A DNA stretch of 64,000 nucleotides from Bradyrhizobium barranii subsp. barranii (GTDB taxonomy: Bacteria > Pseudomonadota > Alphaproteobacteria > Rhizobiales > Xanthobacteraceae): positions 8,291,501 through 8,355,500 of the forward strand of contig NZ_CP086136.1 of the NCBI RefSeq assembly GCF_017565645.3, given 5' to 3'. Each line of letters starts with the position of its first letter. Positions within the stretch are counted from its first letter, which is position 1. The position numbers and the translations under genes were made by a program. Of the stretch, positions 4,741 to 63,588 are shown one piece after another. The notes beneath the pieces are model-generated. The model saw only the letters and a program-made list of their open reading frames with translations, made no database searches and was not told the origin of the DNA.

Positions 4741-4787
4741 ACAACCGGCCGCGAGCGCAGAAGCTATTGCTCGCGGGCGCAACGCCG

Positions 4788-10505: not shown

Positions 10506-10600
10506 CCCTCGCAGGGTCGGCTGTGTCGACCCGGCGCCTCCCAAAATATCCTTTCCCCGGCGTACCGGGTCCCAACGAGCTCGACCAGCTGAAGCCGACA

Positions 10601-12987: not shown

Positions 12988-14352
12988 TTGAGCCGCTTGG
13001 TCATCGTCTCCAACCGTGTCGCCTTGCCGGGGGAAGCTGCGCAGCGCAGCGGCGGGCTTGTGACCGGCCTCGTCGACGCTCTGCATCAGGCTGGAGGCTT
13101 ATGGTTCGGGTGGAGTGGCAAGCTTGGAGAAACAACACCAGAGCCGAACGTTTTTGAGACCGAGGAAGTGACGTACGCTACCGTCGATCTTACCCGCGCG
13201 GACCATGACGGCTACTACAGCGGCTTCTCCAACGCGGCACTGTGGCCCTTATTCCACTATCGCCTTGACCTCATGAACTTTACCCGCCGGGACTTGGCCG
13301 CCTATCGACGGGTGAACGCCCTGCTCGCCGACGCCCTCGCGCCGCTGCTCAGGCCGAGTGACCTCGTGTGGGTGCATGACTACCATCTGATCCCGATGGC
13401 CGAGGAACTTCGCCGCGCCGGGGCCACACAACGGATCGGGTTCTTCTTGCATACGCCGTTTCCGTCGTTGGGGGTGCTGGCGACCCTTCCTCACTACAGC
13501 GACCTGCTGAAATCACTGTGCGCTTACGATCTCGTCGGCTTCCAGACGGTGGAGGATTTGACCGCCTTCCATGACGCCATCCTTCGCCGCGCAGGCGGCA
13601 AGGTTTCGTCCGATGGCCACGTTCACGCCTTCGATCGGGATCTACGCGCCGGCGCCTTCCCGATTGGTATCGATACTGAAGCCATCGCCGACATGGCCGG
13701 TCGCGCTGTGAAATCCCGAACGGCACGCCGGCTGCAGGAGAGTCTCCGGGGGCGCAAGCTCATCATTGGGGTTGACCGGCTCGATTACAGTAAGGGACTC
13801 GAGCACCGGTTCAAAGCGTTCGCCGCCTTTCTCGACGGCTATCCCGCGTACCGCAACCACGTCCGCTTCCTGCAGATCGCCACCGCAACGCGCAGCGACG
13901 TTCCTGAATACCGTGCGCTGCGGCAGAGGCTCGGTGCGCTGGCAGGCGACGTGGCCGGTCGCTTCGCGGAACTCGATTGGGCACCGATCCAGTATTTGAA
14001 CAGGAGCTTTTCGCAGCGCTCGCTCGCTGGCTTCTTTCGGCTCAGTCACGTCGCTCTTGTCACTCCGTTGCGCGACGGAATGAACCTGGTTGCCAAGGAG
14101 TATGTCGCTGCACAGGACCCCGATGACCCCGGCGTGCTCATTCTCTCACCCTTCGCCGGCGCGGCCTATGAACTCGACGCTGCCGTGATCGCCAACCCGT
14201 ATGACCCCGACGCCGTCGCCGAAGCATTGCAGACAGCGCTGGGGATGCCACTTGGGGAGCGATGCGAGCGTTGGCGGACCATGATGGCGGTACTACGCCG
14301 CAATAGCATTGCGGCGTGGCGCGAGAATTTTCTTGGCGCTCTCAGCCGCTAA
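12988..14352 (+). CDS. otsA: Trehalose-6-phosphate synthase (OtsA, GT20)
   Basis: Makes trehalose-6-phosphate from UDP-glucose and glucose-6-phosphate in the cytoplasm, for osmotic and desiccation protection. The 454-residue protein has family hallmarks in order: GGLWFGWSG, VWVHDYHLIPM, FFLHTPFPS, LVGFQT, GVDRLDYSKGLEHR and LRDGMNLVAKEYVAAQ. The start is TTG 12988, with GGAGGG eight bases before it. No otsB is adjacent, so the phosphatase must be encoded elsewhere or be replaced by another. Confidence 0.95.
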   Translation: MSRLVIVSNRVALPGEAAQRSGGLVTGLVDALHQAGGLWFGWSGKLGETTPEPNVFETEEVTYATVDLTRADHDGYYSGFSNAALWPLFHYRLDLMNFTRRDLAAYRRVNALLADALAPLLRPSDLVWVHDYHLIPMAEELRRAGATQRIGFFLHTPFPSLGVLATLPHYSDLLKSLCAYDLVGFQTVEDLTAFHDAILRRAGGKVSSDGHVHAFDRDLRAGAFPIGIDTEAIADMAGRAVKSRTARRLQESLRGRKLIIGVDRLDYSKGLEHRFKAFAAFLDGYPAYRNHVRFLQIATATRSDVPEYRALRQRLGALAGDVAGRFAELDWAPIQYLNRSFSQRSLAGFFRLSHVALVTPLRDGMNLVAKEYVAAQDPDDPGVLILSPFAGAAYELDAAVIANPYDPDAVAEALQTALGMPLGERCERWRTMMAVLRRNSIAAWRENFLGALSR

Positions 14353-14641
14353 CTTGGGATGTCGTCCGGAACGTAGCATCGGTGCAGCAAGTCGCGATAA
14401 TCTCGTTCGTCAACGAGGTTGCCCCAGTCCGCCGATAAGGTGTTACTTCGAAATCATCTCCCCGGCGGAAATGATCCACGAGTGACGGGACCACTTGCAT
14501 CCGCTTCATCGTCGCGCTGAACCAGATAGACCAAAGGCAAGTCGTCCACAGTTCTCCGCTTTCGCGTCAACGTAGTACACTTCTCCTGCTTCCCATCCCA
14601 AAGCGGCCTGTACCGGATCGTCACACCCCTCTTAACTGTGG

Positions 14642-15181
14642 ATGCAACGAATGACCAACGAGCAAAGCCACAAAGTGCACCTAGGTCCCGAAGATCAGGA
14701 GCGGTTGCGAGAACTTCGGGCGCAAAAGCCAGCCCGCAACGTACCCAAGCTCGCACTGACGCCGGGCGCGATGCTTGCCGACCGGGTTGCTGAAACAGTT
14801 GGTTCTTGGCGCTTCATCATCATCCAAAGCGTCCTTCTTGGCATTTGGATCATTCTGAACATGATAGCATTCATCAACCATTGGGACCCCTATCCCTTCA
14901 TTTTGCTGAACTTGGTCCTTTCTTTCCAGGCAGCCTACGCAGCGCCCATCATCATGATGAGCCAGAACCGCCAATCTGAGATTGACCGCAGGCACGCAGA
15001 ACACGACTACCGAATAAATGTGAAGGCTGAACTCGAGATCGAATTGCTGCACAACAAGATTGACGCCTTGCGCGAGCAAGAAATCTTGCAGCTACTCAAC
15101 ATCATTCAGCGTTTGTCCGCGCACCTTGCGCCCGAGCTTGTCGCGGCTATCGAGGCCGAAGCGGTGCCGGGTAAGACCTAG
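14642..15181 (+). CDS. DUF1003-family membrane protein
   Basis: A 179-residue protein with a soluble N-terminus, two membrane helices (about 57-77 FIIIQSVLLGIWIILNMIAF and 85-104 LLNLVLSFQAAYAAPIIMM) and a C-terminal coiled-coil (ELEIELLHNKIDALREQEI). The DUF1003 core GSWRFII and MMSQNRQ is visible. Function unknown. Start may be ATG 14642 or 14651; neither has a strong ribosome site. Confidence 0.85.
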   Translation: MQRMTNEQSHKVHLGPEDQERLRELRAQKPARNVPKLALTPGAMLADRVAETVGSWRFIIIQSVLLGIWIILNMIAFINHWDPYPFILLNLVLSFQAAYAAPIIMMSQNRQSEIDRRHAEHDYRINVKAELEIELLHNKIDALREQEILQLLNIIQRLSAHLAPELVAAIEAEAVPGKT

Positions 15182-23566: not shown

Positions 23567-24390
23567 TCGACCGCGATCATGATCTTTCTATCGTGCGCCA
23601 GGCGAAGGTCCTGAAGCTGGCTCGCAGCACGGTCTACTATGAACCTCGGCCAGTTTCGGCCGAGGACCTTGCCTTGATGCGTCGGCTCGATGAGCTGCAT
23701 CTCGATTATCCCTTCGCGGGAGCGCGTATGCTGCGATCGTTGCTGCGGCGGGAGGGCGTATACGCCGGTCGCCGCCACATCGCGACGCTGATGAAGCGCA
23801 TGGGGATCGAGGCGGTCTATCGTCGCCCGAACACGAGCAAGCCGGCTCCGGGTCACAAGATCTACCCGTACCTGTTGCGCGGATTGAAGATCGAGCGGCC
23901 CGACCATGCGTGGGCAATGGACATCACCTACATTCCGATGCGGCGTGGCTTCGTCTATCTCGCGGCGGTCGTCGATGTGTTCAGCCGACGGGTCCTGGCC
24001 CATCGCGTCTCGATCACAATGGAGGCGGCCTTCTGCGTCGAAGCGGTCCAGGAGGCGTTGGCGAAGCACGGCAGGCCCGAGATTTTCAACACGGATCAGG
24101 GCAGCCAGTTCACCAGCCTCGAGTTCACCGATGTGCTGCTGGACGCGAAGATCGCCATCAGCATGGACGGCAAGGGCGCCTGGCGCGACAACGTGTTTGT
24201 CGAGCGGCTCTGGCGCACGGTCAAATACGAAGAAGTATATCTCCGCGCCTACGACAGCGTGTCCGAGGCGCGAGCGTCAATTGCCAAGTATCTGGCCTTC
24301 TACAATCAGGGACGCCCTCACTCGAGCCTTGACGGGCGCACGCCCGACGAGGCTTACTTCGGCACGCAAGCTATGGTGATGGCCGCATGA
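23563..24390 (+). CDS. IS3-family transposase OrfB (DDE integrase)
   Basis: A 275-residue catalytic subunit: HTH_21 region (LDYPFAGARMLRSLLRREG) and rve integrase core with the triad D in WAMDITYIPM, D in FNTDQGSQFTS and E in VFVERLWRTVKYEEVYL, ending with YNQGRPHSSLDGRTPDEAYF. Length and all catalytic residues are normal, so the element may be mobile. Confidence 0.92.
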   Translation: MIDRDHDLSIVRQAKVLKLARSTVYYEPRPVSAEDLALMRRLDELHLDYPFAGARMLRSLLRREGVYAGRRHIATLMKRMGIEAVYRRPNTSKPAPGHKIYPYLLRGLKIERPDHAWAMDITYIPMRRGFVYLAAVVDVFSRRVLAHRVSITMEAAFCVEAVQEALAKHGRPEIFNTDQGSQFTSLEFTDVLLDAKIAISMDGKGAWRDNVFVERLWRTVKYEEVYLRAYDSVSEARASIAKYLAFYNQGRPHSSLDGRTPDEAYFGTQAMVMAA

Positions 24391-49278: not shown

Positions 49279-50396
49279 GTACCCACTTTTCTTGGAACGT
49301 GAGTCGTGATTCAAGGTCGGGATGATACCCGAAGCAAGAGAAGTCCACCTTTCGAGGAAAGATCGCAAGGTGCTTGAGGCGTGCTGTCGCTCACCGGTGA
49401 CGTTGCAGCGCGATTTGAAGCGGGCGCGGATAGTTCTGTTGGCGGCGGATGGGCGCAGCACCCGGTCGATCGCCAAGGAAGTTGGGGTCCAGCCGCGGAT
49501 TGTCAGCCTTTGGCGGCATCGCTATGCCGACCATGGCCTTGAAGGGCTGCAAGACAAGCCGCGGCCTGGCAAGCAGCCGATCTATACGAAGACGACCGAC
49601 AAGCGGATTCTGAAGCTGCTGGATAAGCCGCCACCGCAAGGGTTTGCGCGCTGGACCGGCCCCCTGCTGGCCGAGGCGCTGGGCGATGTCGATGTCCAAT
49701 ATGTCTGGCGGTTCCTGCGCAGCCACAAGATTGACCTGGTGGCTCGCAAGTCCTGGTGCGAGAGCAACGACCCGAACTTTACGGCCAAAGCCGCCGATGT
49801 TGTCGGCCTCTATGTCGCGCCGCCGGCGAAGGCCATTGTGCTGTGCGTGGACGAGAAGCCCTCGATCCAGGCTTTGGAGCGAGCGCAGGGTTATCTGAAG
49901 TTGCCCAATGGCCGCGCCTTAACCGGCCAAAGCCACGATTACAAGCGGCATGGCACCACAACATTGTTTGCGGCGCTCGAAGTCGCCACCGGAAAGATCA
50001 TCGCGACCCATTCAAAACGCCGGCGCCGCGTCGAGTTTCTCGATTTCATGAACAGCGTCACCGCGACTTTTCCGAACCGCAAGCTTCACGTCATCCTCGA
50101 CAACCTCAACACCCATAAAAAGAACGAGGACTGGCTCAAGGCCCACCCCAACGTGCAATTTCATTTCACGCCGACAAGTGCGTCATGGCTCAATCAGGTC
50201 GAAGTATGGTTTTCCATCTTGCAGGGGCAGTCGCTCAGCGGCACCTCCTTCACGAGCCTCAAGCAGCTTCAGGAACACATCGATGCCTACGTCAACGCAT
50301 ACAACGACAGAGCCGAGCCCTTCGTCTGGACCAAGAAAAAGGTCCGTCAACGCCGTTTCAAAGGCCGCCGTATCACTCAGCTCTGATTCCGGGTAC
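49279..50396 (+). mobile_element. IS630-family element, intact
   Basis: About 1.12 kb between GTACCC at left and GGGTAC at right, each next to a TA dinucleotide inside CTAG, as expected from IS630 targeting of TA. Contains one transposase gene. Confidence 0.75.
49322..50386 (+). CDS. IS630-family transposase
   Basis: A 354-residue DDE transposase: N-terminal HTH pair (RIVLLAADGRSTRSIAKEVG, RHRYADHGLEGLQDKPRPG) and catalytic core with D in VLCVDEKPSIQALER, D in HVILDNLNTHKK and E in TSASWLNQVEVWFSIL. One uninterrupted frame of normal length; probably active. Confidence 0.92.
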   Translation: MIPEAREVHLSRKDRKVLEACCRSPVTLQRDLKRARIVLLAADGRSTRSIAKEVGVQPRIVSLWRHRYADHGLEGLQDKPRPGKQPIYTKTTDKRILKLLDKPPPQGFARWTGPLLAEALGDVDVQYVWRFLRSHKIDLVARKSWCESNDPNFTAKAADVVGLYVAPPAKAIVLCVDEKPSIQALERAQGYLKLPNGRALTGQSHDYKRHGTTTLFAALEVATGKIIATHSKRRRRVEFLDFMNSVTATFPNRKLHVILDNLNTHKKNEDWLKAHPNVQFHFTPTSASWLNQVEVWFSILQGQSLSGTSFTSLKQLQEHIDAYVNAYNDRAEPFVWTKKKVRQRRFKGRRITQL

Positions 50397-51349: not shown

Positions 51350-51712
51350 CTAGTTGTTTCGTTGTGCGGTCCAATATCCCGAGCAGCGCCCACCTGCTGC
51401 GTGGCCGCTCCAGGTCCCGCCGCCGGCGTCTCGCGTCAGCCTTCCCGAGCCTGATGCGTATTTGTCATGGACCGTCACCGACGCGCGAACGGCGCCTGAT
51501 CTTCCGACATACCCACTGAACTTCACCAGATTGGGATGCGTCACAACGCCGTCGTCTATGTTCACTGCGAAATTGTAGGTCGGATCGCAGCTTCCGCGTT
51601 GCGTCACGAAGACGAGATTCCAGGGACCGTCGTAAGAGGTTCGGGCTTCGGCAGCAGTCGCCAGCATAAGGCAGGCACAGCCAATGACATTCGTGATCAG
51701 TCGCTTGTTCAT
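51350..51712 (-). CDS. Small secreted conserved hypothetical protein
   Basis: A 120-residue periplasmic protein: signal peptide (1-23, ending TAAEART) and a beta-rich mature part starting SYDGPWNLVFVTQRGSCDPT, with Gly-rich end GGGTWSGHAAGGRCSGYW. Two cysteines may pair. TGGAGAG precedes the ATG. A recurrent rhizobial family; function unknown. Confidence 0.75.
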   Translation of the reverse strand: MNKRLITNVIGCACLMLATAAEARTSYDGPWNLVFVTQRGSCDPTYNFAVNIDDGVVTHPNLVKFSGYVGRSGAVRASVTVHDKYASGSGRLTRDAGGGTWSGHAAGGRCSGYWTAQRNN

Positions 51713-51844: not shown

Positions 51845-52633
51845 CTACGCGGCCGTCCAGCCGCCGTCGATCGAGAGGTTGGCGCCGGTGATCTGCGCGG
51901 CGTCTTGGCTGCACAGGAACAGCGCCAGCGACGCCACCTGCTCGACCGTGACGAACTCCTTCGTCGGCTGGGCCGCGAGCAGGACGTCGTTGATCACCAG
52001 ATCCCTGCTCATGTTGCGCGCCTCCATTGTATTCGGGATTTGCTTCTCCACTAATGGCGTCCAGACGTAGCCGGGGCTGATGCAGTTGCAGGTGATCATA
52101 GACCGGGCGAGTTCCAGCGCCACCGTCTTGGTGAGTCCCACGATGCCGTGCTTGGCCGCGACATAGGCCGACTTGAAGGGGGACGCGACGAGCGAATGCG
52201 CCGAGGCCGTGGTGATGATACGGCCCCAGCCGCGCCTCTTCATGCCAGGAGTAACGGCACGGAACGCATGGAATGCGGAGGGGAGATTGATTGCGATGAC
52301 TGCGTCCCACTTTTCGACCGGAAAATCCTCGATTGGCGAGACATGCTGGATGCCGGCATTGTTGACGAGCACGTCCACACTGCCAAACGTCCTCTCGGCA
52401 AACGAGATCATGTTGGCGATTTCGATTGGCTCGGTCATATTCGCGGGCGAATAGATAGCCTTCACGCCAAAATCGCTCTCGATTGCAGTCCGCGTTTTTT
52501 CAACGTCGGCCGGCGCCCCAATCCCGTTGAGCACAATATTGGCGCCAGCACCTGCGAATTCCCGCGCATACGCAAGACCGATGCCGCTGGTCGAGCCAGT
52601 CACGACTGCGACTTTACCTTTCAAAATATCCAT
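51845..52633 (-). CDS. bdhA: 3-hydroxybutyrate dehydrogenase (SDR)
   Basis: Interconverts (R)-3-hydroxybutyrate and acetoacetate with NAD in the cytoplasm. A 262-residue short-chain dehydrogenase: cofactor motif TGSTSGIG (12-19), NNAG, active-site Ser in ITTASAHSLVASP, Tyr-Lys in YVAAKHG, and the BDH-type ends CNCISPGYVWTPLVEKQIP and GANLSIDGGWTAA. Last gene of the patatin-adc-bdhA operon (86 bases after adc). Links PHB breakdown to acetoacetate. Confidence 0.9.
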   Translation of the reverse strand: MDILKGKVAVVTGSTSGIGLAYAREFAGAGANIVLNGIGAPADVEKTRTAIESDFGVKAIYSPANMTEPIEIANMISFAERTFGSVDVLVNNAGIQHVSPIEDFPVEKWDAVIAINLPSAFHAFRAVTPGMKRRGWGRIITTASAHSLVASPFKSAYVAAKHGIVGLTKTVALELARSMITCNCISPGYVWTPLVEKQIPNTMEARNMSRDLVINDVLLAAQPTKEFVTVEQVASLALFLCSQDAAQITGANLSIDGGWTAA

Positions 52634-52718: not shown

Positions 52719-53510
52719 TCATGTGACCAGACTTCTCTCGTAGTTCCGGACCGGGCGTCGAACCGGCTGTTGCAGATAGTCGTGAACGACCTTGCCGAGC
52801 CCCAGGGTAAGGTCTGCACGGATGTGAACCGCGGACACGATCTCAAGAACCGGCAAGTCGGCCACGGGGGCCAGGGCGTGAGGCGTCAAGGCGAGAGCCG
52901 CGGGTCCGGTCCACGCCCCTTTCAAGACAAGCTGCTCGAGGTGATATTCGACCAGTTCGCAGATACGTGGCGTGCCGTCGACGTGCGGAATGATCTTGAG
53001 AAGGAAGTTCGGCTCCTCGAGAGCGGCTTTGACTTGCGCCAGGTCGGCTTCGCGGTGCTTGTATCCCATCGTGCCGGTTGCTACCCGCAACGGACCGTAA
53101 TCCAGAGTGCCGATGAGCGTATCGATCTCGGTCCGCAGCGTCGGCTGGGCAAGCTTTTTCGGAAAGCCCCAGAGCTCGCGGCCGCCTGCGATCGGTCCCT
53201 CATCGTTCAGGAACATGCAGTGGGTGTAGCCGCCCCTGCGACCGCGGAACGACACCGGGATGACCTGGCCGCTCTCGGTGTAGTCGCCAAAACCGTTGGA
53301 ATCCGGCATCCGGATGAATTCGTATTTGACCAGCGCTTCGCGTTCATCAAGTTCGAGCGGAGCCGGAACGACCGATCGCAGCTTCGCCGGATCGGTGCGG
53401 TAAGTGATGACCAGGTATTCGCGGTTGACGAAGCGATACGGTCCCGGAGGATAGGCCGGATTGGTGAGCGGCATCGCGAACGCCCGCCTCACGACTTCAT
53501 TCTCGTGCAT
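52719..53510 (-). CDS. adc: Acetoacetate decarboxylase
   Basis: Converts acetoacetate to acetone and CO2. A 263-residue protein of the ADC family with the Schiff-base lysine in [12 protein letters not shown] (about 118), preceded by [19 protein letters not shown] and followed by [20 protein letters not shown]. Length is typical. Lies between the patatin-like gene and bdhA on one strand, so acetoacetate made by BdhA could be removed as acetone. Family members without decarboxylase activity exist. Confidence 0.92.
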
Positions 53511-53549: not shown

Positions 53550-54700
53550 CTATTCGCGACCATCCTGCTCAAGATCGAAGGTGGAGACGCCGTCCGCACT
53601 GGTCGGGCGGGCCAGCACCTCGGGATGTCGGAGGGTGCGCAACGCATCGTGATAGCCGGCGCGCCAATGATCCTGCATCGAGAGGCGGGAAAATTCGTAG
53701 TCCTTTGAGTGGCCTTCGTAGTCCCGCGCGCGATAGATCAGGTGAACGAGGCTGTGCACGTTGTGAGAGGCAGCTGTCTTGAGCAGCCTGACGTCCTCTT
53801 GCTCGCGCAGATCTTCAGGCAGCCTGCTCAAGAGAGCCGCCACCTCTCGCTGCAACCGGTGCAGGCTCTTGAACTGGTCTGTGCTCGCTCGCGTGCGGCT
53901 CGAATATTGAATCTCCTTTTGACGCGTAATGACGTCGGCCATATTGCGCGGAATCTGGCCGCGCGCGCTCCAGAGATCGACCTGAAACACAAGCGTGTCA
54001 TGACGGGCGCCACACTCGATCACCCACTGCAACGGAGTGTTGGATACGAGGCCGCCATCCCAATAGTGTTCGCCATCGATTTCGACCGCCGGAAAGCCCG
54101 GCGGCAGCGCCCCACTCGCAAGGATGTGCTCGGGCCGAATCGTATGCTTAGCCGTGTCGAAATAGACCAGATTGCCGGTCCTCACATTGACGGCACCTGC
54201 GCTGAACCGCGTCATACCGGCGTTGTGCGATCGAAATCGACAAGGCGCTCCAATGTCGTCTTTAGCGCGCTCGTGTCGTAGATGCTCGTGGCGGCAAGCG
54301 TTCCACCCGCTTGCAACCACGGCGCCAGTGGCCGCGCAGAGAAGAAACCGCTCGCGCCAAACATCGCCGCGAAGCTCGCATTCACCTGATTGAGAAAATT
54401 GCGGGTGTGATCGCTATTCATCAAATCGGTGAATGGCGCGTCCAGCGTCACCTGCGTCCAAAACTCGCGAAGCCGGTCAACCCGGGAATTGGGAGGATTG
54501 CCCGCGATGATTGCAGCGTTGATCGCTCCAATCGAAATGCCGGCAATCCAATCGGGATGGATGTTGGCTTCAGCCAGGGCCTCGTAGACGCCTCCCTGGT
54601 AAGCCCCCAAAGCGCCGCCGCCTTGCAAGAGCAACGCGATGCAATCGAATGGCAGACGCCGCTCGGCGGTCGCGAAGTGTGGGCGAGTCTGAAAGTTCAT
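53550..54700 (-). pseudogene. Patatin-like phospholipase (DUF3734 C-terminus), single-base frameshift
   Basis: The first frame (54700-54212) has the oxyanion loop LLQGGGALGAYQGGVYEAL and nucleophile elbow GISIGAINAA. At about 54226 one base is missing (LERLVDFDR, then NAGMTRFSAGAVNVRTG in the next frame), after which the catalytic Asp (YWDGGLVSNTPLQW) and DUF3734 part follow to 53550. Repair gives about 383 residues. First gene of the ketone-body operon; the natural enzyme may be an esterase or PHB-related hydrolase (inference). Confidence 0.85.
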
Positions 54701-55041
54701 GGTTCGTGTGCTCTTGGTTTGCGGTTGCTCAAGCCCGCGTTCTGTCCGGATCGCGTTCGTCGTCCGGCTTACTAAAATATACCGTATAGTTTATTTAGTG
54801 TCGCGTCAAGCGGGCGCATTCACAAGCTCGTGCTGCAACTGATTGAGTCACGTTCGCTCGACGTTGTTATCGACTGCCCAACCGGTTCGGCACGCTGGCG
54901 CAACGCCAAATTCTGCTTCGACGTCACGCCACTGTGGTGAACGAACCGGTCTTTGTTACGAGCACCAGCGATGCCCACGCGCTTACGATATCAACCGCAG
55001 TGTTCGTCGGATGAGGTCCGCCCTGCCCGATCTCGTGTTGG
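54701..55041. other. Intergenic region with operator for the patatin operon
   Basis: Holds the palindrome at 54776. Otherwise no gene; 54801-55041 is unremarkable spacer up to the end of the Pro/Gly-rich protein gene. Confidence 0.5.
54776..54795. promoter_or_regulatory. TetR-type operator, site 1 (patatin-adc-bdhA)
   Basis: AATATAC-CGTATA-GTTTATT, an inverted repeat with one mismatch, framed by ACTAAA and TTTAGT which also pair. It lies about 76 bases upstream of the patatin start at 54700. Same layout as the sites at 61037 and 63346. Confidence 0.65.
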
Positions 55042-55560
55042 CTAGTTGCAGACCAGAACGCGTCGGTGGCGACTGTAGGCATAGTAGCAGTCGCTATCGG
55101 AATAATTGCCCTCGTTCGAGCTGCTGCCATAGGCATAGCCGGCATAGGCTCCAGCGGCATAGGCTGCACCATAACCGTATCGCCGCCCGCCATAGCCATG
55201 GCTGAAGCTTCCGGAACGGCTGTCGCTGACCAATGCAGAGCGAGCCTGGACCGAGCGTGCAACCGTGGGTCCGTCGCGACCGCCGGCGTGGACGCCGCCA
55301 AGCGCCCTTAGATCGCCGCGAGGACCAACGCCGGTGCCCAACCGAGGAGCCGGACCGCCGAGGCCGGCATGGGCCGCAACGCCAGGCCCCATGGGAGGTG
55401 GACTTGCGAATGCGGGAGGACCGCCGGCCGCGATCGGCGGAGGACCGCCCGGCCCCATGGGAGGAGGACCGGGAAATTGCGCATACACCGCGGTCGGCGC
55501 CAACGAAATCGCTGCGAGCGTCGAGCTGAGCGACAACGTCAAGAGTGTCTTCCTGGACAT
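55042..55560 (-). CDS. Secreted Pro/Gly-rich protein, last gene of the efflux operon
   Basis: A 172-residue protein: signal peptide (about 1-27, ending AVYAQF), a Pro/Gly/Ala region (PGPPPMGPGGPPPIAAGGPP), then a Gly/Tyr/Ser region (YGGRRYGYGAAYAAGAYAG) and a final C-Y-Y-A-Y-S-R-H-R-R-V-L-V-C-N with two cysteines. ATG 55560 (CGGAG upstream) is 13 bases after the RND stop. Such tails occur in surface proteins of bradyrhizobia; role with the pump unknown. Confidence 0.75.
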   Translation of the reverse strand: MSRKTLLTLSLSSTLAAISLAPTAVYAQFPGPPPMGPGGPPPIAAGGPPAFASPPPMGPGVAAHAGLGGPAPRLGTGVGPRGDLRALGGVHAGGRDGPTVARSVQARSALVSDSRSGSFSHGYGGRRYGYGAAYAAGAYAGYAYGSSSNEGNYSDSDCYYAYSRHRRVLVCN

Positions 55561-55573
55561 GATAGTCTCCGTT

Positions 55574-58500
55574 TCAGATTTGCGTTTCAAGGACCGGCAC
55601 CGGCGCGGCCGGCGCAAGAGTCGGGTTCGACGAATGAGTTTCGTGCGCCGGGTCAACCGTCTCTGACATTGGCCGGCAATCGTCGTGGACAGGGTGGATC
55701 CGGAACCACGCCACATAGAGCGCCGGCAGGAACAGGAGCGTCAGCAGCGTGCCGACGATGATGCCGCCCATCATCGCGTAGGCCATCGGGCCCCAGAAAA
55801 TCTCGCGCGCGATCGGAATCAGTGCGAGACTTGCGGCGGCTGCTGTCAGCAGGATCGGCCGCATGCGATGCTCGGTCGCTTCCACGACGGCATCCCAGGC
55901 CGGGCGCCCCTCCTTCCCCAGATCCTCAATCTGCACGATCAGGATCACTGAGTTCCGGACCAGAATGCCAATCAGCGCCAGCACGCCCAGGATGGCAACG
56001 AAGCCGAGAGGAGCGCCGCTCGGCAGCAGGGCCATGACGACGCCGATCACCGCAAGCGGTGCGACCGCAAACACCAGGAACAGGCGATGGAAGCTCCGCA
56101 GCTGAATCATCAGGACCGTAGCCATGACGAACAGCATCAGCGGAACGACGGCAACGATCGGCGACTGGCTCTTGGCGCTTTCCTCCACGGAGCCGCCGAT
56201 CGCCACCGAATAACCCGCCGGCAGTTCCTTGCCGAACTCCGCCACCTTCGGCGCCAACTGGTCCATGATTGTCTTCGGCTGGACGTTGGTGACGATGCCG
56301 GCCTTCAGCGTGATCGTGGGAATCCGCGCGCGGCGCCAGATCGTCGGCTGCTCGATTTCGTAGCGCAGATTCGCCACGGCCCCGAGCGGCACCGACTGCC
56401 CGCCCTGCCCGGTCAACTGCAGATCCCGGAGCGTATCGATCGAGCCGCGATCGACCGCAGTAGCGCGTCCCGTGACATTGACGAGGTAGATGCTGTCGCG
56501 AACCTGTGTGATCGGGGTGCCCTCGAGCACCGAGTTCACTGCCGTGGCGATGTCTTCCGACGTCACGCCGAGCTGGCGCGCCTTGTCCTGGAGAACGTCG
56601 ACCTTGACGACGCGCGCGGGCTCCATCCAGTCGAACACGACGTTGCCGAGACCGGGGTTGCTCCGGACGATGCCGGCAAGTTCCTGCGAGAGATCTCTGA
56701 CCTTTGCGATATCTGGTCCGCTCACGCGGTATTGCACGGGACGTCCCACGGGTGGGCCGACCTCAAGCAATTTGACGTAGGTGTCGGTGCCTGGAAACGT
56801 CTTCCTCAGATATTCCTCGAACTGCGCCTTGACGAGATCGCGCGCCTTTATGCCACCCTTGGTCACGACCACTTGCTGGCCGAACCATGCATTGGCCGTC
56901 TGCACGTCGAACGACAGCACAAACCGCGGCGCGCCGGTGCCGACATACGTCGACCAATGCTCCACGGAGCCATTGCCCTGCAGCTGTTCACGCTCGAAGC
57001 GCGCCATCTGCGCATTGGTGTCTGCAATCGAGGCATTTTGCGGCAGATTCCAGTCGATCACCAGCTCGTCACGGTCCGACGAGGGAAAGAACTGCTGCTG
57101 CACGAAAGTCATGCCGAACAACGCCACGAATAAGGCCGCAACCGTCACGCCGACCGTGATCCAGCGGTGATGCATGCAGACGAGCAGCAGGCGGGCGAAC
57201 ATCTGCGCCAGCCGGCCCTTCTTCCCGTGGTGCCCCTTCATCTTTGCGGGCAGGATGGTGACGCCGAGCAGCGGCGTGAACAGCACTGCGACGATCCACG
57301 ACACGATCAGGGAGACCCCAATCACCACGAACAGGGTGAAGGTGAACTCACCGGCATTGCTGGCGTTCAGCCCGATCGGGATGAAACCGGCGACGGTGAC
57401 CAGCGTGCCCGTCAGCATGGGAAAGGCGGTCGACGTATAGACGTGGGTCGCCGCCTTTTCCAGAGGATCGCCGACCTCCAGCCGGGCCACCATCATTTCG
57501 ACCGCAATCATCGCGTCATCGACCAGAAGGCCCAGCGCGATGATCAATGCACCCAGCGAAATTCTCTGCAATGAAATGCCGGCATAGTTCATCACCACGA
57601 ACGTAATGGCGAGAACCAGCGGGATCGCAATTGCGACGACAAGCCCGGCGCGCATGCCCAAGCTGAGAAAGCTGATGGCGAGAACGATAACGACGGCCTC
57701 AAACAGCGCTTCAGTAAAGCCCGACACCGCATGCTCGACGACAACAGGCTGATCGGCGACCAGGTGAACGCCGACGCCGATCGGCAGGTCGGAAATGACC
57801 TTCGTCATTTGCTCTTTCAGCGCCTCGCCGAAGTGAAGCAGGTTTGCGCCGGACTTCATGCCGATGGCGAGCCCGATTGCAGGCTGGCCGTTGTACCTGA
57901 ACAAGGTCTTGGCCGGATCGGCATAACCGCGCGTGATGGTCGCGACGTCAGTGAGCGGAAAGAAGCGGTCGTTGATCCGAAGATTGACCGCGTTCAGGCT
58001 TGCCTCCGACGTGAACCGGCCGTTGACCCGCACGCTGATCCGCTCGGGCCCGTCCTGGAAGACTCCGGACGGCGCGACCGCGTTTTGTCCCTGCAAAGAG
58101 GCCATGATCGAGTGGACGTCGAGGCCAAGGGCCGCGACCTTCCGGGTAGAGAATTCGAGGTAAATTACCTCGTCCTGTGTTCCCAGAATGTCGACCTTAC
58201 CCACATCCGGCACGGTCAACACCTTGGCGCGGATACCCTCGACCTCGTCGCGCAGCTGACGCTGGGTCAAGCCGTCGCTGGTGAAGGCATAAATGTTGCC
58301 GAACACGTCGCCGAAGCGATCGTTGAAGCCCGGCCCGATCACGCCTTGCGGGAATTCGCCCTTGATATCCGCGATCATGTTGCGGACGCGGACCCAGGTT
58401 GGCTTGACGTCAGCCGCTTTTGTCGTGTCTCGCAGATAGACGAATACGGTGGTCTGGCCCGCGACCGTCACGCTCTTGGTGTAGTCTAGCGATTCCAGCT

Positions 58501-58726
58501 CCTCGAGCTTCTTTTCGATCCTGTCAGTGACCTGGCGCGTCATTTCGTCGGGCGCTGCGCCCGGCCACTGCGCCTGGATCACCATGGTCTTGATGGTGAA
58601 GTCGGGATCTTCCTGACGACCAAGCTGAAGATAGGCAAAGAGGCCTGCCGCCATGAAGGCGATCATGAAATACCAGACGAGCGAACGGTGGCGGAGCGCC
58701 CAGTCGGAAAGGTTGAACGACGTCAT
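55574..58726 (-). CDS. RND efflux pump, inner-membrane permease
   Basis: A 1050-residue proton-driven RND pump of the AcrB/MMPL superfamily: N-terminal helix after RHRSLVWYFMIAFMAAGLF, porter domain, membrane helices including the proton-relay Asp pair in LGLLVDDAMIAVEMMVARLE, a second large periplasmic domain and helices 7-12 ending FLPALYVAWFRIHPVHDD. Overlaps the upstream adaptor by four bases. Substrates cannot be read. No outer-membrane TolC-like gene is in the operon. Confidence 0.93.
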   Translation of the reverse strand: MTSFNLSDWALRHRSLVWYFMIAFMAAGLFAYLQLGRQEDPDFTIKTMVIQAQWPGAAPDEMTRQVTDRIEKKLEELESLDYTKSVTVAGQTTVFVYLRDTTKAADVKPTWVRVRNMIADIKGEFPQGVIGPGFNDRFGDVFGNIYAFTSDGLTQRQLRDEVEGIRAKVLTVPDVGKVDILGTQDEVIYLEFSTRKVAALGLDVHSIMASLQGQNAVAPSGVFQDGPERISVRVNGRFTSEASLNAVNLRINDRFFPLTDVATITRGYADPAKTLFRYNGQPAIGLAIGMKSGANLLHFGEALKEQMTKVISDLPIGVGVHLVADQPVVVEHAVSGFTEALFEAVVIVLAISFLSLGMRAGLVVAIAIPLVLAITFVVMNYAGISLQRISLGALIIALGLLVDDAMIAVEMMVARLEVGDPLEKAATHVYTSTAFPMLTGTLVTVAGFIPIGLNASNAGEFTFTLFVVIGVSLIVSWIVAVLFTPLLGVTILPAKMKGHHGKKGRLAQMFARLLLVCMHHRWITVGVTVAALFVALFGMTFVQQQFFPSSDRDELVIDWNLPQNASIADTNAQMARFEREQLQGNGSVEHWSTYVGTGAPRFVLSFDVQTANAWFGQQVVVTKGGIKARDLVKAQFEEYLRKTFPGTDTYVKLLEVGPPVGRPVQYRVSGPDIAKVRDLSQELAGIVRSNPGLGNVVFDWMEPARVVKVDVLQDKARQLGVTSEDIATAVNSVLEGTPITQVRDSIYLVNVTGRATAVDRGSIDTLRDLQLTGQGGQSVPLGAVANLRYEIEQPTIWRRARIPTITLKAGIVTNVQPKTIMDQLAPKVAEFGKELPAGYSVAIGGSVEESAKSQSPIVAVVPLMLFVMATVLMIQLRSFHRLFLVFAVAPLAVIGVVMALLPSGAPLGFVAILGVLALIGILVRNSVILIVQIEDLGKEGRPAWDAVVEATEHRMRPILLTAAAASLALIPIAREIFWGPMAYAMMGGIIVGTLLTLLFLPALYVAWFRIHPVHDDCRPMSETVDPAHETHSSNPTLAPAAPVPVLETQI

Positions 58727-59799
58727 GGCTTCTGATCCTTTTCGATACGGACGTGTTGTCCTTGTTTGAGGCTGTGGATTCCGGCGGTCACGATGCGCGC
58801 GCCGGGGGCAAGCCCACTGGCGACGCGGGCACCTGCGGGGTCCCCGGCGAGATCGACCTTGTGCAGCGACACGGTGCTCGCAGGCTGATCGACGACCCAG
58901 ACAAAATTCTCGCCATCCTTGGCGAGCACCGCCGAGGCGGGGACACGCAATGTCGGGCTTTGCGTTTTGTCGAGCGTCGCGGTGACAGTCGTGCCCAAGC
59001 GGAAGCTTTCAGGCGGATAGTTCAGGGCGATACGGACTCGCCGCAGGCGCGTCACGGGGTCTGCCTGCGGAGCGATCTCGCGAACCTTGCCGTCGCCCCG
59101 GACGGCGGGGAGCAACTGCAAGCCGACACTGAACGGCAAGCCAATTTCAAGCGGCACCGGGAAATCCTCCCCGATATCGACCACCGCCTCCCGGATGTCG
59201 GGCCTCGCAACCGTCACGACATTTTGGCCAGGAGAGACCACTTGTCCGACTTCTGCGCCCACCGCAGTGACGACACCGGCGAAATCGGCCTTGAGCTGGG
59301 CATAGCCCCGTTGCTCGATGGCCTTGATCAAGTTCGCCTGTGTGTGTGCGACCGACGCGGCGGCACCGGCTCGCGCCTGCTCGGCGTTGTCCAGTGTCTG
59401 CTTGGTGGTGGCGTCGGTTGTGATGAGGGTCCGCTGCCGCTCCTCAGTCGCCTTGGCAGTCGCCAGGAGCGCTTCGGCCTTGGTGAGCTCAGCCTTCGCC
59501 GAGCGCACCGCAAGCTCCAGAGCCATGGAATCGATGACACCGACTGTTTGTCCTTCGCTGACGACGTCACCAACGGAGACGGGACGCCCGGTCAGACGTC
59601 CCAGGACGCGGAACGCGAGATTGGTCTTATACTGCGGCTCAACAACGCCAACGGCGACGATGCCGTCCGGGCGGCTTGGCTCAAGCACCATCGACAGCAC
59701 GGGTCGCACAGGCTCGGGCGCTTTCACCTCCTGCTGGCATCCAACCAGCACCAGCGCGGATACAATCGCGCCGGCTGTAATCATAGCGCGCCTCTTCAT
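58723..59799 (-). CDS. RND periplasmic adaptor lipoprotein 2
   Basis: A 358-residue membrane-fusion protein with a lipobox (VSALVLVGCQQ), biotinyl-lipoyl half-motifs (GRLTGRPVSVGDVVSEGQT and FAGVVTAVGAEVGQVVSPGQ) around a coiled-coil hairpin, then beta-barrel and membrane-proximal domains ending ARIVTAGIHSLKQGQHVRIE. Joins the pump to an outer-membrane channel. Four-base overlap with both neighbours. Confidence 0.9.
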   Translation of the reverse strand: MKRRAMITAGAIVSALVLVGCQQEVKAPEPVRPVLSMVLEPSRPDGIVAVGVVEPQYKTNLAFRVLGRLTGRPVSVGDVVSEGQTVGVIDSMALELAVRSAKAELTKAEALLATAKATEERQRTLITTDATTKQTLDNAEQARAGAAASVAHTQANLIKAIEQRGYAQLKADFAGVVTAVGAEVGQVVSPGQNVVTVARPDIREAVVDIGEDFPVPLEIGLPFSVGLQLLPAVRGDGKVREIAPQADPVTRLRRVRIALNYPPESFRLGTTVTATLDKTQSPTLRVPASAVLAKDGENFVWVVDQPASTVSLHKVDLAGDPAGARVASGLAPGARIVTAGIHSLKQGQHVRIEKDQKP

Positions 59800-60929
59800 G
59801 ACGGATCTCCCTCATATGTCACGGCCTGGCCATTGCTCAGCAGCTTGCCGCCATCGATCACGACGCGCTCCCCCGGCTTGAGTCCCGCCTTGATCAGCAC
59901 TTCACGGGCTTCATAACCGCCGATCGTCACCGGCTTCAGCGCAGCTGTTTTGGTCGCCGGGTCGACGGTCCAAACCGCGGGCTTCGATCCCGCCGCCGCC
60001 AATGCACTCCAGGGCAATGCGATCTGCTGCTGGGCTTTCGCTTTGACGGTTCCTGCAACGGCGCTTCCAAGCGTCATCGCTGCCGATGGATCCTGAATGG
60101 CAACCTTGACGCGGATGGTCGCGCTTCTCGCGTCAATCGCGGGCGAGACTTCCCTGACATGCCCGCTCGCCATCACGCCAGCGTCGGAGACAAGCGCCAG
60201 CGATACGCTGCCGGCGTCGAGATCACCAAAGAAGAGGGATTCGTAGATGTCGAAGACGGCATCCCGTTCTCCGTCCTGCGCCAGCGAAAACACGGGTTGC
60301 GCGGCCTGTACGACCTGGCCGACTTCCAGATTGCGCGCGGTGACCACGCCTGCCGCTTCCGCGCGCAGTGCGGTATAGCCAAGGGCGTCTTTCGACGTTC
60401 CCAGCTCCGCCTTTGCTGCTTCAAGCGCACCTTCTGCGGTTCGCAATCCTTCCTGCGCCTGATCGTAGACCGTCCGCGTGGTAAAACCGCTTGCGATCAG
60501 CGCCTTCTGCCGTTCGAAGGTTACCTTGGCCACGCGCAGCTGAGATTCTGCGGCCAGCACCGCCGCGGTCGCGGCATCGACGTCGGCCTGCTGCTCCGCT
60601 GGATCGAGTACAGCCAGGATCTCACCAGCCTCGACGTGCGCGCCGACATCGACGTAGCGCGCGAGCACACGTCCACTGACGCGGAATGACTGGTCAGCGT
60701 GGAAACGGGCCTGGATTTCGCCGGTCAGCGTGACGGAGGCTTGCCGGTCGCGCGGCTGCACGATCTCCGTGCGCACGATAGCAGCGCGCATGATGGGAGC
60801 GGCAGAATGATCATTGCAACCACTCAGCGCGATTGCGGCCAGCGCGGCCGCCAGGAGGCCAGCCCCTCTCAGCCTGCCTTTGCTGGCAGTTTCAGCGTTG
60901 CCATTTTGGTTGGCTGCGTGATGTTTCAT
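59796..60929 (-). CDS. RND periplasmic adaptor lipoprotein 1
   Basis: A 377-residue membrane-fusion protein, first gene of the operon: lipobox ALAAIALSGCND, GRVLARYVDVGAHVEAGEIL and AAGVVTARNLEVGQVVQAAQ lipoyl halves, coiled-coil hairpin, and an end GLKPGERVVIDGGKLLSNGQ. It differs clearly from adaptor 2, so two distinct adaptors serve one pump. Start ATG 60929; the site at 61037 is about 110 bases upstream. Confidence 0.9.
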   Translation of the reverse strand: MKHHAANQNGNAETASKGRLRGAGLLAAALAAIALSGCNDHSAAPIMRAAIVRTEIVQPRDRQASVTLTGEIQARFHADQSFRVSGRVLARYVDVGAHVEAGEILAVLDPAEQQADVDAATAAVLAAESQLRVAKVTFERQKALIASGFTTRTVYDQAQEGLRTAEGALEAAKAELGTSKDALGYTALRAEAAGVVTARNLEVGQVVQAAQPVFSLAQDGERDAVFDIYESLFFGDLDAGSVSLALVSDAGVMASGHVREVSPAIDARSATIRVKVAIQDPSAAMTLGSAVAGTVKAKAQQQIALPWSALAAAGSKPAVWTVDPATKTAALKPVTIGGYEAREVLIKAGLKPGERVVIDGGKLLSNGQAVTYEGDPS

Positions 60930-61036
60930 GACAAGTCCATGTGGTCAGTCACGGTTATCTCCTCAGGTTGCTCCTGCCGGTCCATCCGGACGAGCTATCG
61001 CAGACCCGGCAAGCAAAGCTGTCTGCGCTGGCTTTT

Positions 61037-61056
61037 ATTACACTAAACCGTATATT
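61037..61056. promoter_or_regulatory. TetR-type operator, site 2 (efflux operon / tetR)
   Basis: Read on the minus strand: AATATAC-GGTTTA-GTGTAAT, the same half-site layout with two mismatches. It lies between the divergent tetR (61126) and efflux operon (60929), where a TetR repressor normally acts. Confidence 0.65.
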
Positions 61057-61125
61057 TTCTTTTTCTTGCATTTTCCTTCCCTGCATGTCAAGCGGGATCT
61101 GCAAACTCGTAACTAGGAGATCGTG

Positions 61126-61788
61126 ATGGCGAAGAACAAAAGCCCGAAACGCGGCAGACCGCCCAAGGACCTCGCCGGCGACGTCCAGGCGCGGATTCTC
61201 GATGCGGCCCAGCAGCTCTTTCTCGAGAAAGGGTTTCGGAGTGCCAGCATCGATGACATCTCCGAGTTGGCCCCTGCGAGCAAACCGACCATCTATGCCC
61301 ACTTCCCCGGCAAGGAGGCGCTGTTTGTGGCCGTGGTGGCACGGACCATCAACGGATTGACAGATTTCGAGGGGTTCACGCCGGCAGGCCGCACCATCCA
61401 GGAAAAACTCGCCAATCTCGGCATCGAGATCGTGGAGAGATTCGTCGAGGACACGTTGGATCTCACGCGCGCGACGATCGCCGAGGCGCGGCGATTTCCC
61501 GAGTTGAGCCGAAATGTTCACGACGCGGCGCGCGACCGCGCGGCTGGGGCAGTATCGCAGCTCTTGAACGAGGCAACGCAAAGGGTCGCGCGCTCACCTA
61601 AAGGACCTTTCAGCGCAAAGCGGAGCGTAGCGACCGCGCAGATGTTCATGGATCTCATCCTGCTTCCGATGCTTATGAGATCTCTGATGGGTGAGGACCT
61701 GAAGGATCTCCAAAAAGAACTGCCGACGTTCCTGCACGAACGGGTCAATTTCTTTCTTGCGGCTTGCGAGGCAGATTGGAGGCCGTGA
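61126..61788 (+). CDS. TetR-family repressor, divergent from the efflux operon
   Basis: A 220-residue regulator: basic N-terminus (KNKSPKRGRPPKD), HTH (ILDAAQQLFLEKGFRSASID then LAPASKPTIYAHFPGKEALF) and an all-helical ligand domain of the AcrR-C type. ATG 61126 follows AGGAGA; GTG 61123 is an alternative. Position and operator suggest it represses the pump and probably itself; ligand unknown. Confidence 0.92.
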   Translation: MAKNKSPKRGRPPKDLAGDVQARILDAAQQLFLEKGFRSASIDDISELAPASKPTIYAHFPGKEALFVAVVARTINGLTDFEGFTPAGRTIQEKLANLGIEIVERFVEDTLDLTRATIAEARRFPELSRNVHDAARDRAAGAVSQLLNEATQRVARSPKGPFSAKRSVATAQMFMDLILLPMLMRSLMGEDLKDLQKELPTFLHERVNFFLAACEADWRP

Positions 61789-61807
61789 ATCAGCCACACC
61801 CCGCCCG

Positions 61808-62461
61808 CTATCCTTGCGCCACCGCTTTGGGACGTAAGTCGGCGCCGAGGTCGATCGACTGCCCCCACGGTACGTGATGCAGGGCGCCCGCGCAGAAATC
61901 CATCACCTCGTCAAACGCGGGCCGAACGGTAGCCGACTTGATCCGCGATGGATTGAGATATCCGTCCATTGCTTCAAGCAGGCAACCAGTCATCGCCATC
62001 GGACTTCCCGGTCGCAGTTCGCCGCTCGCCTGTCCGCCAGCAATGATCGCGCGCACAAGTTCCCGGATCCGGTCTGCGTGAGACAGCGCGACTGGCCAGT
62101 TCTCGCTTACCGCCGCAGCGACCAATTCGTGTAATTTGCTGTCGTTCTCCAGCCGGTGTTCGTGCAGTTGCGAGATTGCGCTCAAAGCGGCCGTTAGACG
62201 CTCCAGAGCCGATCCGCTCAAGAGAGCCGCAAGGATTGCGGCCGCGGAGACCTGTTCGAACAAATCCGCCACGACCGCCTCTTCGATCGCCTGCTTTGAA
62301 GCGAAGAAGCGGTAGACGTTGGCGGGCGACATCGACGTTCCGCGAGCGATATCGGCGACGGTGGTCTTCCTGAACCCGATTTTGCGGTGCAATCGGATCG
62401 CGGCTTGTACGATCCGCTGACGAATGCACGGCGATCCGGCCTGAGGTACGCGTTCCTGCAT
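61808..62461 (-). CDS. TetR-family regulator, second
   Basis: A 217-residue regulator with HTH (RIVQAAIRLHRKIGFRKTTV, then IARGTSMSPANVYRFFASKQ) and a C-terminal helical domain. Convergent with the first TetR gene (20 bases apart), not close to it in sequence. It may control the genes downstream or act elsewhere; no separate operator was found. Stop codon and start are well defined; the ATG has only a weak ribosome site. Confidence 0.9.
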   Translation of the reverse strand: MQERVPQAGSPCIRQRIVQAAIRLHRKIGFRKTTVADIARGTSMSPANVYRFFASKQAIEEAVVADLFEQVSAAAILAALLSGSALERLTAALSAISQLHEHRLENDSKLHELVAAAVSENWPVALSHADRIRELVRAIIAGGQASGELRPGSPMAMTGCLLEAMDGYLNPSRIKSATVRPAFDEVMDFCAGALHHVPWGQSIDLGADLRPKAVAQG

Positions 62462-62472
62462 CGCTTGGGACC

Positions 62473-62910
62473 TCAGTGAGATGGGATCGAATGCAATTCG
62501 CGTCGGCAGGCTTCCCCGAAGCCACGCAAGGGATCCATTTCCTCCAGGAACTCAGGCAGATCGCCAAATTCGCGGTTTGGTGACAGGTAGGTTTCGATGA
62601 TCAGGCGACCTGCCCGCTCCGCGGCTTGAACCACTTGATCGCTGGACAGAATCCTCATCCGCCCTATGAGCGCATACAGATTGACCAGTTGCGGAATCTC
62701 GGATTTGTCGCTGACGAGCGCGTCGGCGTAGACTCGGGAGGCCTCCTCGATGAAGCTTCGATAGAGCCGCTCGCGCTTGGAAATCGACCGGGCATAGTGA
62801 CGCTCGCGAAGCCTGCGGCGCCGAGTCACCCATCCAGTTACGATTGTGGAGATCGCTCCGAAGGCCGAGCCCCCGAACGCAGCGAAAGCGGGCGCATAAA
62901 TCGTGTTCAT
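62473..62910 (-). CDS. Hypothetical protein with N-terminal membrane helix
   Basis: A 145-residue protein: hydrophobic N-terminus (APAFAAFGGSAFGAISTIVT), then a basic and helical cytoplasmic part (RRRLRERHYARSISKRERLY) ending LRGFGEACRRELHSI. GAGGAC precedes ATG 62910. Upstream of the second tetR on the same strand, 11 bases apart, so likely one operon. Related small proteins exist in bradyrhizobia as I recall; function unknown. Confidence 0.7.
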   Translation of the reverse strand: MNTIYAPAFAAFGGSAFGAISTIVTGWVTRRRRLRERHYARSISKRERLYRSFIEEASRVYADALVSDKSEIPQLVNLYALIGRMRILSSDQVVQAAERAGRLIIETYLSPNREFGDLPEFLEEMDPLRGFGEACRRELHSIPSH

Positions 62911-62914
62911 ACGA

Positions 62915-63202
62915 TCAGTCCTCATCTCTTGCGCCGCGGTGGCGGGGCGATCCGATGGTCCTGACCGCAGCAGTTCCCGCAGCGTGATCGAAGACGGCCC
63001 TGCAAGCATCGCTCAGGTCTGACTCTCTTTGCCTGAGACAGGCCTCCACATTCGTGGCGTCGGGGATGTAGCTAAGGCACAGCCGGAAGGCGTCAGGCGC
63101 GCATGCGGCCCTCTGTTCGGGAGTGCCGCGGTTCTCCTGCGCAAAGGCAGTCCCATTGCCGAACGTCGCCGCCAGCATGACGACTAATGTGAACTTGAAC
63201 AT
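62915..63202 (-). CDS. Small secreted Cys-containing protein
   Basis: A 95-residue periplasmic protein: signal peptide (MFKFTLVVMLAATFGNGTAF, cleaved near AFAQE) and a Cys4 domain (RAACAPDAFRLCLSYIPDA, then CLRQRESDLSDACRAVF) with regular spacing, suggesting two disulfides. AGAAGGG precedes ATG 63202. Family recurrent in rhizobia; function unknown. Confidence 0.75.
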   Translation of the reverse strand: MFKFTLVVMLAATFGNGTAFAQENRGTPEQRAACAPDAFRLCLSYIPDATNVEACLRQRESDLSDACRAVFDHAAGTAAVRTIGSPRHRGARDED

Positions 63203-63345
63203 ACCGAATCCCTTCTTCTGTTGAGCATCGCTCGTTCGAACAGGTGAACGCAGCGTCACGCTCCGAGACCCACCCTTCAAACAGTCTGAACACGCGCTTG
63301 TGACTCTTCGCTCTTGACACATCCCTCAGGCCGGGATGTATATGA

Positions 63346-63365
63346 AATATACGGTGTAGTATATT
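63346..63365. promoter_or_regulatory. TetR-type operator, site 3
   Basis: AATATAC-GGTGTA-GTATATT, a perfect 7-bp inverted repeat with a 6-base spacer, best of the three sites. It ends 13 bases before ATG 63379, so a bound repressor would block that gene's start region; the divergent 63202 gene could also respond. Confidence 0.7.
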
Positions 63366-63378
63366 TATGGAGCCGAGA

Positions 63379-63588
63379 ATGTCAACGCTTTTGTGGTCGC
63401 TCGCGAAGGAAAATCCGTGGCCGGGGCTTGCGCTCGCATCCCTGAACCTGGTCGTGGCTCTGTCTCTCGTGGGCCTGAGCCTGCTGCTGGGCGTCACGAT
63501 ATCGTTGCTTGCCGGGCTGCACGCGTTCGTCGGCGAGCGGTCTTGGATCACGCCAAAGGGACTTCAGCGCGGGAGCGGGGCGCTGTGA
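63379..63588 (+). CDS. Small membrane protein under a TetR-type operator
   Basis: A 69-residue protein with one long or two short helices (GLALASLNLVVALSLVGLSL and LLGVTISLLAGLHAF) and a polar tail. ATG 63379 has GGAG upstream; the ATG at 63367 overlaps that site. Its TGA overlaps the next gene's GTG by four bases, so the two are coupled. Function unknown. Confidence 0.65.
   Translation: MSTLLWSLAKENPWPGLALASLNLVVALSLVGLSLLLGVTISLLAGLHAFVGERSWITPKGLQRGSGAL

Follow-up and report, generated by a model that had tools for sequence, protein, structure and literature searches.

Why should the genes of an export pump and those of ketone-body metabolism be preceded by one and the same palindrome? 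The question is raised by a 64,000-nucleotide stretch of Bradyrhizobium barranii subsp. barranii (contig NZ_CP086136.1; G000:C1:8291501-8355500, from the 11.4-Mb genome G000 in four contigs), here called the window. An earlier note, made from this sequence, had placed palindromes of the type AATATAC-N6-GTATATT in three promoter gaps: upstream of genes for a patatin-like phospholipase, acetoacetate decarboxylase (adc) and 3-hydroxybutyrate dehydrogenase (bdhA), between a tetR gene and the operon of a resistance-nodulation-division (RND) pump, and before a gene for a small hydrophobic protein, SMP. On the present analysis, the three sites very probably serve as operators for a single local repressor, the AefR-like TetR protein encoded at 61126 (gene tetR1, protein TetR1), presumably released by a flavonoid-type inducer. 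The proposal of a TetR regulon joining the pump to the acetoacetate and 3-hydroxybutyrate genes is supported by the confinement of the strict motif, its co-occurrence with TetR1, its conservation, operators that have moved with their genes, and the co-induction of the orthologous genes in Bradyrhizobium japonicum USDA110 (PMC4070704, used here, like the other papers cited, in excerpt).

Three sites and their distribution

All three 20-mers are present where the note had placed them, at 54776, 61037 and 63346, with 1, 2 and 0 mismatches, respectively, to its pattern. The proposed operators, and the promoter-like boxes upstream of them, are as follows.

54776–54790: operator 1, AATATACCGTATAGT, 75 bp upstream of the patatin start (20-mer of the earlier note, 54776–54795)
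61042–61056: operator 2, ACTAAACCGTATATT, in the gap between tetR1 and the pump (20-mer, 61037–61056)
63346–63360: operator 3, AATATACGGTGTAGT, 19 bp before the SMP start (20-mer, 63346–63365)
54804–54809, minus strand: TTGACG box before patatin, conserved in a 15-sequence alignment
61086–61091, minus strand: TTGACA box facing the pump operon, conserved in a 57-sequence alignment
63314–63319, plus strand: TTGACA box before SMP, conserved in a 55-sequence alignment

With up to three mismatches, the pattern of the note has four matches in the window against 0.15 expected from shuffles; the fourth (24222–24241) is a copy of GATATACTTCTTCGTATTTG, a sequence repeated many times across the genome and probably part of a mobile element. 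Genome-wide, the 20-mer is found in one place without mismatch, in one with a single mismatch and in four with two, and three of these six best places are the proposed sites (the first, the second and one of the four). At up to three mismatches there are 87 places against 25 for the reversed control, many of the 87 being copies of the GATATACTTCTTCGTATTTG repeat. The strict pattern AMTAHACSGTDTAKT is more telling, since it occurs in exactly three places in the genome, all of them the sites in question, while the reversed control occurs in none; by chance, 0.10–0.14 places would be expected, assuming 62–64% G+C. (This pattern was composed after inspection of these and related sites and is circular for presence there, but not for absence elsewhere.)

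The shape of the element required revision. The 6-base spacer is a shifted register, and what is conserved is an odd-centred 15-bp dyad, ACTATAC-S-GTATAGT. Pair matching over 138 sites reaches 8.89 of 12 at the central base, as against 6.0–6.1 at the centre assumed in the note, 2.5 bases away, and on this test the N6 register was dropped. The symmetrised consensus of the 138 sites, each with at most two mismatches, is TAAATAAACTATACcGTATAGTTTATTTA, its letter frequencies biased upwards by the selection of the sites for dyad likeness. An N6 palindrome appears in the window because each dyad there is degenerate; the site at 63346, described as perfect, matches the 20-mer without mismatch but is two positions off the conserved dyad. 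As for promoters, a conserved TTGAC box does stand upstream of all three sites, but a scan with a consensus promoter gave no excess (2 matches versus 1.7 in shuffles).

Conservation was followed in 56 orthologous loci (L034–L089; TetR fragments L090–L097 excluded), all from Bradyrhizobium apart from two metagenome-assembled genomes (MAGs), which are titled Tardiphaga and Afipia. Of these loci, 42 yielded patatin from its start and 54 yielded SMP. In the gap between tetR1 and the pump, the best dyad match has one mismatch in 44 loci, two in 10 and three in 2, and since the figure is the best match within 160 bp, the two 3-mismatch cases mean little. The SMP promoter has 0 mismatches in 3, 1 in 23 and 2 in 28 of the 54 loci. 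In the alignments, the operator and the upstream TTGAC box stand out as conserved islands amid variable gap sequence.

Across the genus, a TetR1 ortholog (E up to 1e-70) is present in 69 of 242 genomes. All 69 carry the strict motif, as against 7 of the 173 without TetR1; at least two strict sites are found in 68 of 69 versus 0 of 173, and the site totals are 193 and 7. Four genomes in which the TetR match is about 48–52% identical and the operator absent (G107, G170, G191 and G247) were reassigned to the second group post hoc; counted with the first, they give 69/73 versus 7/169. In G202, a genome of the window's own species, neither a TetR1 ortholog nor the motif was found. The adc genes of TetR1-less genomes served as a negative control (17 of 24 TetR1-less genomes with a match; 16 of 30 loci scanned; 64–72% identity), and the best operator match there had four mismatches. 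This control is weak, since the loci hold either adc by itself or, in 4 of 16, patatin and adc paired in a different order.

Genes behind the operators and their movement

The genes concerned lie in the window as follows.

51350–51712, minus strand: small protein with a signal-like N-terminus, behind bdhA; an 89% homolog in G071 has its own perfect operator
51845–52633, minus strand: 3-hydroxybutyrate dehydrogenase, bdhA (TIGR01963, 366.6 bits, cut-off 307)
52719–53510, minus strand: acetoacetate decarboxylase, adc (PF06314; NF002614, 432.9 bits, cut-off 150), with a GFPKK motif, which we take to be the catalytic lysine pair
53550–54700, minus strand: patatin-like phospholipase (PF01734 and DUF3734), frame broken, in two pieces in different frames
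55574–58726, minus strand: RND permease (PF00873)
58723–59799, minus strand: periplasmic adaptor 2 (TIGR01730, above cut-off)
59796–60929, minus strand: periplasmic adaptor 1 (TIGR01730, above cut-off)
61126–61788, plus strand: tetR1, proposed repressor (TetR_N and TetR_C_7, AefR-like, above cut-offs), 77% identical to the blr7023 protein of USDA110
61808–62461, minus strand: tetR2 (TetR_N, TetR_C_27), counterpart of bll7024; probably a regulon member, behind operator 3
62473–63009, minus strand: ORF178 (ORF, open reading frame), without Pfam family, counterpart of bll7025, whose primers fall in its USDA110 homolog
62915–63202, minus strand: ORFcys, small protein with a signal-like N-terminus, without Pfam family
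63379–63588, plus strand: SMP, a 69-residue hydrophobic protein, followed past the window end by one more ORF and a PepSY-like gene (so named from 49% identity to a PF03413 protein)

The patatin frame is intact in all 42 relatives that have both pieces and split only in the window copy, which may be a pseudogene or the result of a sequencing error. The pump has two adaptors, as the note had said: both pass the TIGR01730 cut-off and lie next to a single RND permease. Two adaptors are also found in pumps of the TriABC type, and the window likewise has two adaptor genes before one permease gene in one operon, although the two systems are likened by gene layout alone. An ORF at 49322–50386, presumably an IS630-type transposase, lies about 1 kb past the bdhA side of the ketone-body unit, which sits elsewhere in other species.

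Regulon genes that are located elsewhere in relatives are often accompanied by the operator. Where patatin-adc-bdhA is on the opposite strand, as in the window, all 14 loci have an operator dedicated to this unit within 250 bp. Where patatin starts 37–75 bp behind the PepSY-like gene, no operator with up to two mismatches is found in any of 22 loci. With a gap of at least 140 bp, an operator lies inside the gap in five of six loci, within 250 bp in four of them (L060, L061, L063 and L083) and 420 bp upstream in L080. Extra sites were inspected at six loci or stretches. G249 has two such sites, one of them 22 kb from tetR1 and upstream of an SMP gene that is followed by patatin-adc-bdhA, the other upstream of ORFcys, 312 kb away. 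The 51350 gene of the window has an 89% homolog standing alone in G071, and a perfect operator precedes it. In L089, ORFcys-ORF178 and tetR2 are each preceded by a copy, and ORFcys homologs situated elsewhere, in L187 and L089, come with an operator of their own. By eye, L080 and L186 have in common a further small protein with a signal-like N-terminus.

Two other arrangements were seen among the relatives. In L189 (G025), two operators flank a gene at 7098–8573, between the pump and tetR1, the USDA110 counterpart of which is bll7022, with only a sub-threshold match to a histidine-kinase ATPase. L043 has two tetR1 copies 4 kb apart (10001–10660 and 14196–14855, 97% and 91% identical to that of the window), as well as an additional perfect operator at 2829, before an 83-residue ORF.

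BjG30 and the identity of the regulator

What would switch such a regulon? The locus is that known as BjG30 (bll7018–blr7030) in USDA110, in which the pump, both TetRs, adc and bdh are orthologous and lie in one region with three operators of the same kind. Identities of the window proteins are 90% for the RND permease, 88% for acetoacetate decarboxylase, 82% for hydroxybutyrate dehydrogenase, 77% for TetR1 and 58% for TetR2. The gene order differs, in that the window's patatin-adc-bdhA unit lies beyond the pump on the other strand, while that of USDA110 follows SMP and blr7026; the broken patatin is another difference. (An ORF of USDA110 tried as blr7030, the possible counterpart of the 51350 gene, did not match.) The USDA110 genes were placed in genome G212 by means of the primers in PMC4070704, 33 of 34 of which match exactly and in order.

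According to that paper, the BjG30 genes, including the pump, the two TetRs, acetoacetate decarboxylase and hydroxybutyrate dehydrogenase, are induced together by genistein, by 24.6- to 213.9-fold at 30 min for the 17 BjG30 genes minus bll7017, blr7026, blr7031, bll7032 and bll7033. 5-Hydroxyflavonoids induce the locus within 5 min, and the response to genistein within 5 minutes is earlier than that of nodW and nodD1. Deletions of BjG30 lower nodule weight, although complementation failed, and a proton balance was proposed in which decarboxylation consumes the protons let in by the pump. In the portion of the paper available to us, the switch is only suspected to be a TetR and the operator is unnamed (PMC4070704). 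In USDA110, the first operator begins at 7738381, in the bll7022/blr7023 gap, the second at 7740706, in the bll7025/SMP gap, and the third at 7742612; this last one is perfect and lies 89 bp before the blr7027 start, where it separates the non-induced blr7026 from the induced blr7027. All 12 induced genes fall, correctly oriented, in gene runs starting at one of the three operators, with operon extents as we infer them.

The efflux-ketone link is thus already known at the transcript level in USDA110 and, since the locus is BjG30, it is not new in itself. The additions made here are the operator, the assignment of a regulator and the operator moves, which were not found in the open-licence literature searched, as far as the portions available go. 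The operator letters likewise had no match among open-licence papers; a paper on the FrrA binding site lies outside that scope and could contain additional ones.

Among the two TetR genes noted nearby, the one at 61126 is the likely binder; the second appears dispensable for the operators. TetR1 resembles local repressors of the TetR family, with a TetR_N helix-turn-helix and a TetR_C_7 ligand domain, both above cut-offs, and with a palindromic putative operator in its own divergent promoter. It matches the chain of the TetR regulator NalC (PDB 8ke8) over residues 23–205, and its C-terminal domain family is named after AefR, the TetR regulator of Pseudomonas fluorescens. Phloretin, apigenin and quercetin are ligands of AefR and interfere with its binding to DNA (PMC11915855). 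However, both regulators come from different genera and control different pumps, and the comparison covered the proteins.

Under the proposed mechanism, TetR1 (the blr7023 ortholog), presumably as a dimer, would sit on the dyad ACTATAC-S-GTATAGT close to the -10 and start regions and repress. At operator 2 it would hold down its own gene and the divergent two-adaptor pump; at operator 1, patatin, acetoacetate decarboxylase and 3-hydroxybutyrate dehydrogenase, perhaps together with the small gene after them; and at operator 3, both ORFcys-ORF178-tetR2 and, in the opposite direction, SMP with the following genes. TetR1 would be released by a small phenolic compound, and the pump and the ketone-body enzymes would then be switched on together; to judge from BjG30, the inducer is most likely a 5-hydroxyflavonoid, genistein for example. 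We infer repression near the -10 and start regions, autoregulation and phenolic release from the anatomy of the locus and from BjG30; binding, repression rather than activation, the operon extents and the ligand in this strain are likewise presumptive.

Several observations weigh against this reading, some of them in favor of chance, that is, of AT-rich promoter sequence that merely resembles a palindrome. The sites overlap AT-rich, -10-like sequence, and the window dyads are imperfect, with 1, 2 and 2 mismatches in operators 1, 2 and 3. Matched loosely, the motif is no commoner than its reversed control: ACTATACNGTATAGT with up to three mismatches has 28 places in the genome versus 152 for the control, and with up to two it has 6 versus 5, three of the 6 being the sites, while a loose motif with up to two mismatches is matched in 43 of 60 genomes, the control being equally or more frequent in most. 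Chance is nevertheless scarcely credible, and was rejected, given the three strict places in the genome, the 193 strict sites in TetR1 genomes against 7 in the others, and the conserved islands, even if the genomes of a genus are related and not independent, so that the Fisher value for the co-occurrence is overstated. Individual genes also fit poorly. L065 has a long gap before patatin in which no operator was found, no operator was found near the L080 homolog (74%) of the 51350 gene, and blr7026, which lies downstream of the operator at 7740706 through SMP, is not induced, so that early termination must be assumed.

Could the operators belong to another TetR, TetR2 or one of the FrrA type encoded elsewhere, with tetR1 a mere neighbor, or could several TetRs share the sites? 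tetR2 adjoins, and seven TetR1-less genomes carry one strict site each; among those listed, ACTAAACSGTTTAGT in G080, G084 and G088 and the perfect dyad in G182 (G182:C11:162963-162977) are perhaps operators of other TetRs. But the search for TetR2 orthologs came up empty in five genomes that retain operators (G014, which is that of L087, and those of L057, L058, L075 and L080; best matches 37–40% identical; G014 is the only one with a stated completeness, L075 being a MAG), which makes TetR2 unlikely as the regulator. FrrA and freCAB of USDA110 (blr4322, bll4319–bll4321) are similarly arranged, a genistein-linked TetR divergent to an RND operon (PMC4070704). The likely FrrA gene (L181/L185), identified by position and neighbors only, is found in G212 at 4.77 Mb; the three ORFs divergent to it have lengths and N-termini compatible with an outer-membrane factor, an adaptor and an RND protein. 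The gap of the likely FrrA gene contains ACTGAACCGTTCAGT and ACTGAACTGTTTAGT, operators of identical 15-bp geometry that make cross-binding conceivable, but the half-sites are ACTGAAC-N-GTTYAGT, as opposed to the window's ACTATAC-S-GTATAGT, and the protein is only 30% identical to TetR1, the USDA110 ortholog of which is the blr7023 protein. FrrA is thus also unlikely, and control by another TetR is improbable as a whole. It is unlikely too, although a matter of more serious doubt, that TetR1 acts on these operators but answers a non-flavonoid signal in this strain, such as a different phenolic or some metabolite from the patatin or ketone-body pathway, or that it is an activator. The locus is not confined to nodulators, in that strong nodA matches occur in 48 of the 69 TetR1 genomes (versus 83 of 173 others; Fisher 0.003, 19 weak NodA matches not counted). 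On the other hand, the USDA110 ortholog locus is induced by 5-hydroxyflavonoids, as described above, G000 itself has nodA, and the operators lie on the -10/start side, as for repressors.

A family of flavonoid-responsive repressors?

TetR1 and its operators may form part of a larger pattern. TetRs about 44% identical to TetR1 (L028, L030 and L033) have different upstream palindromes, of the type GAACG...AC-N-GT...CGTTC. G000 has a second module (L133, 2171–5289) consisting of a patatin gene, a TetR gene with TetR_C_7 and a PepSY gene; over 150 residues, the product of the PepSY gene shares 49% identity with the PepSY-like protein encoded behind SMP. AACGATACAGTGTAGTT and AACGATACGGTATGGTT sites precede the patatin and PepSY genes of the module. 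Similar ORFs, with AACGATACNGTRTRGTT-like sites as in L133, are found in USDA110 (L190, G212, 2001–5005). From its position, the L190 patatin might be guessed to be blr4684. That patatin gene is genistein-induced and independent of NodW, according to the portion of a review available to us (PMC5793154).

As a tentative reading, which we regard as possible but fall short of favoring, Bradyrhizobium may answer plant flavonoids outside the nod genes by way of AefR-like TetR repressors whose operators have the frame AAC-NN-WAC-N-GTW-NN-GTT in common and are distinguished through the NN pair and the adjoining A/T. The pair would be TA here, TG in the likely FrrA, and GA in the patatin-TetR-PepSY module of G000 and USDA110. 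Within the BjG30 branch, the operator would then be a mobile tag, a copy of which stands before most new units as the genes for the pump, the ketone-body enzymes, patatin and the small proteins are brought together, separated and relocated, in G249 to as far as 312 kb from tetR1.

The partnership of the pump with acetoacetate decarboxylase and hydroxybutyrate dehydrogenase has apparently survived these rearrangements, an argument for its importance to the cell. On the tentative reading just given, the decarboxylation of ketone bodies would be inherently coupled to the export of flavonoids. The proposed operator and regulator supply a candidate control element for a gene region known to respond to soybean flavonoids by induction, and the model gives predictions for 69 genomes of the genus.

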